DNA of 64,000 nucleotides from Rhodoplanes sp. (GTDB lineage: Bacteria; Pseudomonadota; Alphaproteobacteria; Rhizobiales; Xanthobacteraceae), in contig NZ_JACAAX010000029.1 of assembly GCF_013377085.1 (NCBI RefSeq), positions 1 through 64,000 on the forward strand, written 5' to 3'. Below are positions 24,412 through 42,401 of this stretch, one piece after another (within the stretch, counting starts at the first letter, position 1; every line of letters begins with the position of its first letter). The position numbers and the translations under genes were made by a program. Under the pieces are notes generated by a model. That model saw nothing but the letters and a program-made list of their open reading frames with translations. It did no database searches and was not told the DNA's origin.

Positions 24412-24621
24412 ATGAACAACGCATCGCTCGCCACGGCCGACCGGATCACCCACTTGAAGGTGGTCGTGCTGGCGCTGATCGCCTCGATCGCCATCATGGT
24501 GATCGGCATCACGGCGCACGCGGTCGACGACGCCCGCGCCTACGGGGTCGCCGCGACGCCGCTGAAGGCCGGCAAGGCCGTGATGTTCTCCACCACGGAC
24601 ACCGCGACCATCGTGCGCTGA
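24412..24621 (+). CDS. Small single-helix membrane protein
   Basis: A 69-residue protein with one hydrophobic helix (about 13-33: VVVLALIASIAIMVIGI) and a short external tail ending near TIVR. The ATG at 24412 follows a very clear GGGAGGGG site, and a strong terminator follows the gene, so it is a genuine transcription unit. Similar short proteins (an ADRTTHLK-like start, one helix, a KAGK segment) are common in Bradyrhizobium-type genomes, often as several paralogues; their function is unknown. The 290-base gap before it contains an AT-rich stretch at about 24165-24225 that may be its promoter. Confidence 0.82.
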   Translation: MNNASLATADRITHLKVVVLALIASIAIMVIGITAHAVDDARAYGVAATPLKAGKAVMFSTTDTATIVR

Positions 24622-24683
24622 GCGACCGACGCCGGCCTGCGGGTCACGCGACGGGCTCCAAGACGGACATCAGAGAGATTTCG

Positions 24684-24716
24684 ACGGCCGGGTGTTTCGC
24701 CCGGCCGTTTTCGTTT
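24684..24716 (+). terminator. Rho-independent terminator
   Basis: ACGGCCGGG and CCCGGCCGT form a 9-base-pair stem with a 7-base loop, followed by TTTCGTTTG. It ends the small membrane-protein gene and lies between it and the convergent anti-sigma gene, so it may serve both. Confidence 0.85.
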
Positions 24717-24731
24717 GATTCAAGGACGTTC

Positions 24732-41185: not shown

Positions 41186-41263
41186 GGCCCGGTGGCGGAA
41201 TGGTTACGCGGGGAGTGCCGACCGCACTCCCACATCCTGGTTCGAGCCCAGGCTGGGCCTCCA
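41186..41263 (+). tRNA. tRNA-Cys-like gene with an abnormal anticodon arm
   Basis: 78 bases. The acceptor GGCCCGG/CTGGGCC (one G-T pair), the D arm GCGGAATGGTTACGC, the T arm CCTGG-TTCGAGC-CCAGG and the end T-CCA (U73, a Cys-tRNA identity element) match alphaproteobacterial tRNA-Cys. The anticodon arm (41211-41231) does not: GGGAGTGC/GCACTCCC form an 8-base-pair stem over a CGACC loop. With a 7-base loop the stem is 7 pairs, the anticodon would read GAC and the universal U33 is missing. It may be a pseudo-tRNA or a non-decoding RNA; a true GCA tRNA-Cys should exist elsewhere. Confidence 0.65.
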
Positions 41264-41288
41264 TTTTTCAATCTCCTGGCCATCGCTT

Positions 41289-41323
41289 TGGAGAACGCCG
41301 GCGTCCCGCAGCGCCGGTCTCCA
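41289..41323 (+). other. Stem-loop downstream of the tRNA-like gene
   Basis: TGGAGA-ACG-CCGGCG, an 8-base loop, CGCCGG-TCTCCA: 12 base pairs with a 3-base bulge, 25 bases after the tRNA-like CCA, which is itself followed by TTTTT. It may process or end that transcript. Confidence 0.45.
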
Positions 41324-41417
41324 GCCATGGCGCGCGACGTCACGGCGGCGCAAGGCCGCACCGCACAGGCCGGCGCCGTTCATCTGGAGCGAGAGAGCGA
41401 GAGGCGGAAAAAGAATG

Positions 41418-41500
41418 ACCGGCCCCCGAGGGCGCCGGTGCCCCGTCTCGACGCGACAGCCTGCCGGTACATCCGCGGTCAGACGTCGCGCGAGAGGGGG
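41418..41500 (+). ncRNA. Structured RNA-like element, copy 1
   Basis: A CCGGC/GCCGG hairpin followed by a long stem: CCCC-G-TCTCG-A-CGCGAC (41441-41457) pairs with GTCGCGCGAGAGGGG (41485-41499), 15 base pairs with two bulged bases. The 25-base loop region (41458-41482) is identical to that of copy 2. Strand is assumed. No coding sense is seen. Confidence 0.5.
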
Positions 41501-41526
41501 AGTTGGCGATTTCCCTCGCCGGCCAG

Positions 41527-41573
41527 GTCACGAGCCCAAGTCACGAGCCCAAGTCACGAGCCAAGTCACGAGA
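41527..41573. repeat. Short tandem repeat (13-base unit)
   Basis: GTCACGAGCCCAA twice, then a 12-base and a partial unit, between the two RNA-like copies. It probably arose by slippage. Confidence 0.85.
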
Positions 41574-41675
41574 CGACGGCCGGTCATCGAGCAGGCCGAT
41601 ATCGTCCTCGACGGATGCCGCACCATGCCGGCGCGGCGGAGTTCGATACGTGACCCTGCTTGTCGGAGGGAAAAA

Positions 41676-41757
41676 CCCGGCTCCCGAAGGCGCCGGTTCC
41701 CCGTCTCACGGCCAAAGCCTGCCGGTACATCCGCGGTCAGGCGGCGCGTGAGAGGGG
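41676..41757 (+). ncRNA. Structured RNA-like element, copy 2
   Basis: About 85% identical to copy 1 (12 differences in 82 bases). The stem CCCC-G-TCTCACG (41699-41710) pairs with CGTGAGAGGGG (41747-41757). Where copy 1 has a G-C pair (41450/41491), this copy has A-T (41708/41749), a compensatory change that supports a folded RNA. The family is not recognised. The rest of the 41264-42020 region shows no gene. Confidence 0.5.
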
Positions 41758-42020
41758 TGCGGCGTGAGCCGCGTGGACTGCATATGGGGCTTCTTGACGA
41801 AATGCCAAGCCCCCGATGCCGTCCCTGAGGCATTCGGGCGCACAACCCGGCTGCAGAGGAACCATAGCGAGGCTTTGTGACTGTTTGCCGACAGAGCCGC
41901 GGCCGGATGACGGCACCGGGCGAATCTGATCGGTCGGCTCCGATTGCACCCGGCCGGCCAGCCGGCCCCTCGGGGCTATCCCTATTCCGGCCGTCGCCGG
42001 CGCCGTGCTATGGTGCCGAC

Positions 42021-42401
42021 ATGGTCCGCTCGGTCCGCCAAATTATCGCCGTGCTGGTGGCGCTCGCCTGGATGATCGGCAACGTGTTGCCGGTCGTGCC
42101 GGCCGACGCATCCGCCGCGACGGCGCTGGCGTCCACGGCGCCGCAGGATCACGGGAGCGTCCCGGGCGCAGCCGACGCGATGCCGTGTCACCACGACGGC
42201 ACGGTGCCGGACACCGGAAGCCCCGACAAGACCAAGCCCTGCCCGGTCGTGGCGCTGTGTGCGAAGTGCTTCCAGGCGCTGCCGACCGTCGCGGCGCCGA
42301 TCGCCCGCTTCGCCTTCGTCACGGCGTCGGTCGCGGGCACCTCCGACCAGCAGGTCGAGAGCATCGCCCCCCCGCCTCTCCTGAAACCACCGCGCGTCTG
42401 A
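42021..42401 (+). CDS. Small exported Cys/His-rich protein of the efflux locus
   Basis: A 126-residue protein with a signal peptide (about 1-34: IAVLVALAWMIGNVLPVVPADA) and potential metal ligands AMPCHHDG (about 53-60), KPCPVVALCAKCF (about 73-85). It resembles short DUF2946-type or similar proteins found beside copper/silver efflux genes and may bind metal in the periplasm; this is inference. ATG 42021; longer upstream reading runs into non-coding DNA. It is followed 131 bases later by the FixH-like gene of the efflux operon. Confidence 0.7.
   Translation: MVRSVRQIIAVLVALAWMIGNVLPVVPADASAATALASTAPQDHGSVPGAADAMPCHHDGTVPDTGSPDKTKPCPVVALCAKCFQALPTVAAPIARFAFVTASVAGTSDQQVESIAPPPLLKPPRV

Follow-up and report, generated by a model that had tools for sequence, protein, structure and literature searches.

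The question raised by the region around 41.4 to 41.8 kb of the window (the whole 64,000-nt stretch of Rhodoplanes sp. DNA that was analysed, to which all positions refer) is what kind of element is present there twice. The original prediction was of two copies, about 85% identical and 258 bases apart, of a structured RNA-like element. The copies are direct repeats without gaps, with a start-to-start distance of 258 bases, and 70 of their 81 positions are identical (86%, 11 differences); when the 2 kb around them were shuffled 20 times, the best pair of 81-mers shared only 41 to 46 positions.

41677 to 41757, minus strand: copy 2, made up of a main hairpin and a terminator hairpin (repeat alignment, Rfam match, fold)
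41419 to 41499, minus strand: copy 1, made up of a main hairpin and a terminator-like hairpin (repeat alignment, Rfam match, fold)

The claim that no coding frame explains the repeat stands, as in each of the six frames the copies disagree at 6 or 7 of 26-27 residues. A small ORF beginning at the AUG of the loop was also set aside: residues differ in every frame, and changes at the tip pair, described below, preserve pairing yet turn the third codon from Trp to Arg. The reported swap of a G-C pair in copy 1 (41450/41491) for A-T in copy 2 (41708/41749) is correct, and the positions are paired in both folds; on the minus strand, 41491/41450 is G-C and 41749/41708 is A-U, and this is the sole double change between the copies. 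With one double change, and with only 21 of the 31 pairs predicted for copy 1 also present in copy 2, the two copies by themselves say little about structure, and the evidence comes from their relatives. Four tandem 13-bp units (CCAAGTCACGAGC) at 41523-41574 closely precede copy 1 in the minus-strand direction; by eye, the unit was not apparent upstream of the other genus copies listed.

When positions 41200-42000 were searched against Rfam at a relaxed threshold, both copies matched RF02346 (ar35, which comprises SmrB35/SmelB053) on the minus strand, each over model positions 1-144 of 144. The original pointer to the alpha-r families of Rfam was therefore a good one, though the scores of 36.4 bits (E 3.8e-5) and 24.9 bits (E 0.016) are under the curated gathering score of 45, at which a tRNA was the only match in the window. 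A search of the whole genome returned copy 2 alone (E 7.3e-5). Since a match with an E-value no worse than 0.001 also turned up in one of 14 control genomes, that of Deinobacterium chartae, the Rfam score cannot serve as proof by itself. Three of the four loci from relatives within the genus scored 29.9-32.9 bits and the fourth gave no match; seven of ten comparison loci exceeded the cut-off (48.7-130.1 bits), namely all five free-standing loci from Rhizobiaceae and two of the five others. A weak Rfam match lacking GGATGTA (L028 in the relative G009) was dropped as a family site.

The Rfam matches also settle the strand. Minus-strand folding gave -62.2 kcal/mol (z -5.4) for 104 nt of copy 2 and -57.3 kcal/mol (z -5.3) for 97 nt of copy 1, whereas for 81 nt folded on the plus strand copy 2 had a z-score of -4.4 and copy 1 one of -2.9; because the folded stretches differ in length, the z-scores cannot decide the strand on their own. 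Judged by sequence comparison, the RNA of both copies lies on the minus strand, and the copies are divergent relatives of ar35/SmelB053 that fall formally outside RF02346 at the Rfam cut-off. The order originally read, a short hairpin followed by a long one, is true of the plus strand; read along the RNA, the order is the reverse, with the short hairpin, a terminator, behind the long one. We consider it very probable that a real sRNA related to ar35, with predicted transcription, is encoded here. Its parts are the following.

41671 to 41774, minus strand: predicted sRNA of copy 2, about 104 nt, its ends placed from the promoter-like and terminator sequences
41803 to 41809, minus strand: -35-like sequence CTTGGCA; TTGG is kept in the first copy in 5/5 genus genomes
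41781 to 41789, minus strand: -10-like sequence CCCCATATG; CCCCATAT stands at the same spacing in 5/5 genus genomes
41759 to 41772, minus strand: small 5' hairpin GCGGC-TCAC-GCCGC; the 5-bp stem is kept in 5/5 genus genomes and the loop varies
41720 to 41739, minus strand: conserved 20-nt tip of copy 2 with a bulged A and the 9-nt loop CGGAUGUAC (motif alignment, covariation)
41671 to 41700, minus strand: terminator hairpin and T tract (five T) of copy 2 (terminator scan, genus alignment, fold)
41408 to 41504, minus strand: 97-nt stretch used for folding copy 1, with an arbitrary 5' end
41462 to 41481, minus strand: conserved 20-nt tip of copy 1 (motif alignment, covariation)
41408 to 41442, minus strand: terminator-like hairpin and T-rich tail of copy 1 (fold; not called by a simple scan)

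Copy 2 thus looks like a complete sRNA gene, with an RpoH-like promoter, a 5' hairpin, the main hairpin and a terminator. Its promoter-like sequence scores 12 of 14 against CTTGAA/CCCCATAT, the E. coli consensus for the heat-shock sigma factor (sigma32-type, RpoH), and it is predicted as RpoH-like only; a sigma70 scan of 41300-42100 returned nothing. The terminator scan found one terminator, that of copy 2, where shuffles led us to expect 0.4. Before copy 1, neither RpoH-like scoring nor the genus alignment revealed a promoter-like sequence, and the small first stem-loop, present in copy 2, is not evident there. Upstream of the promoter-like site is a block, ACAGTCACAAAGCCTCGCTATGGT (41861-41884, minus strand), that is partly conserved in the genus alignment.

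The original prediction also singled out a 25-base loop region identical in the two copies. Positions 41458-41482 are indeed identical, but they are not all loop: they contain the 20-mer with its 9-nt loop. We number this tip U1 G2 A3 C4 C5 R6, C7 G8 G9 A10 U11 G12 U13 A14 C15 (the loop), Y16 G17 G18 C19 A20; positions 1-20, 2-19, 4-18, 5-17 and 6-16 pair, and A3 is bulged. With two mismatches allowed, 150 genomes of the order yielded 66 sites, spread over 40 genomes, as against four sites for the reversed control. Pair 1-20 was T-A in 45 of these sites, C-G in 17, T-G in 3 and C-A in 1, and pair 6-16 was A-T in 47, G-C in 10, G-T in 4 and otherwise composed in 5; each loop base was kept in 61-65 of the 66 sites, and the bulged A3 in 65. 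The C1-G20 form (CGACC...GGCG) is common (17/66 sites, e.g., L332, L337 and L341), and searches that start from TGACC miss it.

Covariation was measured on alignment A3 (108 sequences), in which the invariance of the tip arises partly by construction, since the sequences were picked by motif; the outer stem was not a selection criterion. Over the 10-pair helix, 82.9% of the cells were paired, compared with 69.5% in shuffled and 24.5-50.7% in slid alignments, and the covariation score was 0.370, compared with 0.153 and at most 0.180, respectively. The number of pairs changed on both sides (8 versus 6.8 in shuffles; 6 of 500 shuffles were as high) and the number of further pair types (30 versus 28.2; 63 of 500) are less striking than the covariation score. 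The structure alignments exclude sites without a T run (23 of 121 free, 8 of 141 linked to a cold-shock gene). Alignment A1 holds 44 sequences, which are 43 of 52 non-redundant free sites picked by eye plus copy 1 of the window, and A2 holds the first 60 of 63. Model R1 derives from A1 and includes both window copies, so its matches in the window are not independent; a weak R1 match at 24591-24717 is without the motif, appears by eye to be a gene-end terminator, and was set aside. The covarying homologues that the original prediction had called for are thus present, and the selection on structure and loop sequence that it had supposed is seen in these relatives as covariation and a kept loop.

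Within the genus, the exact motif occurs in five of six genomes (2, 2, 3, 1 and 2 sites), the sixth genome being 58% complete; the sRNA gene is kept in all five genomes that are at least 90% complete, in one to three copies each. The left side of the window, with a DUF2927 region and a tRNA-like gene, was matched in all four relatives, and the block at 47.6-54 kb in three of the four, with other genes inserted between; in G009, the 7.9 kb on that side held no match to the block. The pair in G079 at first seemed to have moved between other genes, and a wider comparison showed the same neighbourhood with genes inserted.

The tRNA-like gene (41186-41263, plus strand) resembles tRNA-Cys and lies near the sRNA in 5/5 genus genomes compared. 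Its anticodon arm is non-canonical, by eye about 8 bp with the loop CGAC[C/T] in four of the five genomes, and in the five ARAGORN assigns it to Val, Arg, Val, Cys and Gly; a canonical tRNA-Cys exists at another place in each of these genomes. We regard the gene as possibly encoding a tRNA-like RNA without a decoding role.

Could the repeat instead be a palindromic mobile element (REP-like) or a site acting as DNA, with no function as RNA? Such an origin would agree with the two tandem copies, with relatives on proviruses and with the mobile elements noted near the SmelB053 family in PMC3927594. A palindromic repeat family had been named at the outset as what might overturn the RNA reading, but the exact motif occurs just twice in the 6.48-Mb genome, unlike such a family. 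Moreover, the neighbourhood is the same across the genus, pairs are preserved through changes on both sides, and many related sites, described next, lie directly past the stop codons of cold-shock (csp) genes and carry a terminator. We therefore regard the mobile or DNA-level explanation as highly improbable.

Across the order, the exact pattern TGACCNCGGATGTAC has matches in 69 of 397 genomes, and the reversed pattern has one match in one genome. Among 263 distinct sites in the collected loci, a csp gene lies upstream of 144, whereas the other 119 lack one within 500 nt, some of the latter probably being coding coincidences (by eye, e.g., L168 and L172) that were left in; 132 of the 144 csp-linked sites sit 13-35 nt past the csp stop codon. 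If a csp gene has to lie within 130 nt, the split between csp-linked and free sites is 38 versus 57 in IMG/VR, 34 versus 13 in whole genomes and, among the matches listed, at least 70 versus at least 51 in named genome contigs, counts per source that do not equal population frequencies. The tip is common to free and csp-linked copies, and the letters of the outer stem of the main hairpin differ. A reading frame ending in SA(G/E)NLQAA that had been taken for a prophage structural gene proved to encode a cold-shock protein.

One could envision that the hairpin and terminator form nothing other than a 3'-end module, which stabilises or ends transcripts, and that the free copies arose as by-products of duplication and do little themselves. 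A T run does follow most csp-linked copies (133 of 141), copy 1 has no promoter-like sequence, and the copy number varies from 1 to 3 within the genus, all of which such a module would accommodate. Yet an invariant 9-nt loop and a bulge would be superfluous for a plain terminator, and in 5/5 genomes the first copy retains its promoter-like block and its 5' hairpin. We consider a module of this kind distinctly unlikely to be the whole answer.

Neither copy in the window has a csp gene within 500 nt upstream. In the window's genome, which has nine CSD matches, eight of them above the cut-off, GGATGTA is absent within 130 nt in the seven csp 3' ends listed, one of which holds a decayed csp-linked tip (G000:C23:66861-66878, L384). 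An exact search had suggested that csp-linked copies are missing from the genus, a conclusion overturned by the C-G form of the tip: three relatives (G489, G053 and G079) carry intact csp-linked tips 62-65 nt past the stop codon. G009 and G490 each have one further tip site without a csp gene upstream. As the window's own genome holds no intact csp-linked tip, csp mRNAs can hardly be the sole partners of the RNA there.

If the tip matters as RNA, then the question is what recognizes it. One scenario is that of a trans-acting antisense sRNA, whose invariant loop would pair with mRNA targets as the loops of many free-standing sRNAs do; the free-standing gene with an exposed conserved loop and a terminator has the form expected of one, and the S. 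meliloti relatives are classed as trans-encoded sRNAs in PMC2873474 and PMC2780559. A seed, however, would need neither the closing pairs nor the bulged A that are kept alongside the loop, and the same loop is kept in csp mRNA 3' ends. Pairing of the tip with csp 5' regions, which we considered as a candidate mechanism, was rejected for want of enrichment: in the 300 nt upstream of 156 csp genes, the mean longest exact match was 5.95, against 5.88 for shuffled sequences. An antisense role is possible but, in our judgement, unlikely. The joint retention of bulged A, closing pairs and loop, together with the lack of complementarity to csp 5' regions, leads us to favour recognition by a protein.

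For the promoters of free copies, sequences were scored against the E. coli consensus CTTGAA/CCCCATAT (maximum 14). A score of at least 11 was reached by 13 of 39 non-redundant free copies (12 of them outside the window), compared with 0.3 in shuffles and one on the opposite strand, and a score of at least 10 by 15 of 39, compared with 2.2 in dinucleotide shuffles and three on the opposite strand. Eight of the 13 promoter-like sequences end 15-40 nt before the tip and five are more than 50 nt away; 26 of the 39 copies score under 11. None of the 12 csp-linked copies left after removal of redundancy reached 11, but with csp coding sequence upstream of the tip this set is a poor control for promoters, and the shuffles and the opposite strand are better ones. 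With redundancy kept, a looser pattern was matched by 18 of 100 free sites and by one of 142 csp-linked sites. RpoH-like promoters are thus enriched upstream of free-standing copies. PMC7143759 lists RpoD and RpoH1/2 motifs for SmelB053, so the idea of a heat-shock promoter has already been published for that member.

Free ar35-type hairpins on predicted proviruses (e.g., L072, L112, L131 and L142) adjoin primase and candidate defence genes, and sit as if marking a spot for accessory genes. For 49 free IMG/VR sites with a T run, the closest ORF of 100 aa or more, no farther than 2.5 kb away, was selected on either side, which gave 90 proteins. Ten of these match phage primase/polymerase, four phage antiterminator, five DUF3644, five SLFN_AlbA_2, three RhuM and two putAbiC; candidate defence models, among the best 25 of 110, include PDC-S19 (five), PDC-S05 (three) and PDC-S23 (three). 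Several of the sites are near-identical, and since the provirus ends in IMG/VR are predictions, some sites may be host flank. The hairpin of L131 follows a tail tube gene. Phage records searched with the csp-linked copy from L040 gave nothing credible (best E 0.2). In a literature search that covered few subscription journals, we found no account of phage-borne copies or of heat-shock promoters across free copies.

How do the window copies compare with known systems? According to PMC3927594 (2011), SmelB053 has relatives with the loop GGAUGUA, 29 of 33 related 3'-UTRs are attached to cold-shock genes, and the free RNAs were suggested to intercept degradation complexes, so that the csp link and the decoy idea date from 2011. 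Three other reports describe SmrB35 as a 139-nt transcript stimulated about 4-fold by luteolin (PMC2780559), its microarray detection under several stresses with a second copy 3 kb away in S. meliloti (PMC2573895), and SmelB053 among deep-sequenced sRNAs (PMC2873474). Both window copies share with ar35/SmrB35/SmelB053 (RFMSmelB053 in PMC3927594) the loop GGAUGUA in the second stem-loop, and a third stem-loop of the Rho-independent terminator type (scan and fold for copy 2, fold only for copy 1). The first stem-loop, variable or sometimes missing in that family, is present in copy 2 and not evident in copy 1. As with ar35/SmelB053, the gene is free-standing and has several copies per genome, here 258 bp apart rather than the 3 kb of S. 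meliloti (PMC2573895). Unlike ar35, the window copies are under the Rfam cut-off, and their innermost tip pair is G-C instead of A-U. PMC3927594 names Rhizobiaceae and one Ochrobactrum, and reports no free SmelB053-type sRNA from the lineage of the window. The csp 3'-UTR hairpins of Rhizobiales described in that same paper have the same 20-nt tip, usually followed by a terminator, but the window copies are without a csp gene upstream and copy 2 has its own promoter-like sequence. The analogy drawn there with the 3' stem-loops of E. coli cspA mRNA, a structured cold-shock 3' end tied to control of decay, holds by description, sequence relation aside. CsrB, also named there, shares the proposed logic of a free RNA presenting a protein-binding hairpin, with the difference that the window copies have one tip per RNA and that the bound factor is putative.

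Our preferred explanation is that copy 2 would be a free-standing minus-strand sRNA gene, with copy 1 as a second copy downstream, and that copy 2 would be transcribed from its heat-shock-sigma (RpoH)-like promoter to the intrinsic terminator. The central hairpin would present the bulged-A tip with the CGGAUGUAC loop that is found after the stop codon of many csp genes. Under stress, the RNA would soak up a putative factor, either an RNA-binding protein or a part of the decay machinery, that recognizes this tip on csp 3' ends, and sequestration of the factor would change the fate of csp mRNAs. Free copies resemble csp tails in the tip and in little else of the main hairpin, as would be expected of a decoy. 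For the explanation as a whole, including stress induction, a factor bound to the 3' ends of csp mRNAs and the decoy action, we put the chances as evenly balanced.

The ar35/SmelB053 family has been known since 2007-2011, its function unproven. New here are the retention of the gene across the genus, the enrichment of RpoH-like promoters over a good part of the free copies, and the copies borne by proviruses. It is conceivable, though rather doubtful in its full extent, that in Hyphomicrobiales an RNA driven by the heat-shock sigma factor mimics csp 3' tails and titrates a sequence-specific factor for the CGGAUGUAC-loop hairpin, that responses to heat and cold are coupled in this way, and that temperate phages carry the mimic beside accessory and defence genes. 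A sharp recognition element is now defined, a 20-nt bulged-A hairpin common to free sRNAs and csp mRNA tails, which opens the old decoy proposal to direct tests and suggests that an RNA-binding factor for it may exist.
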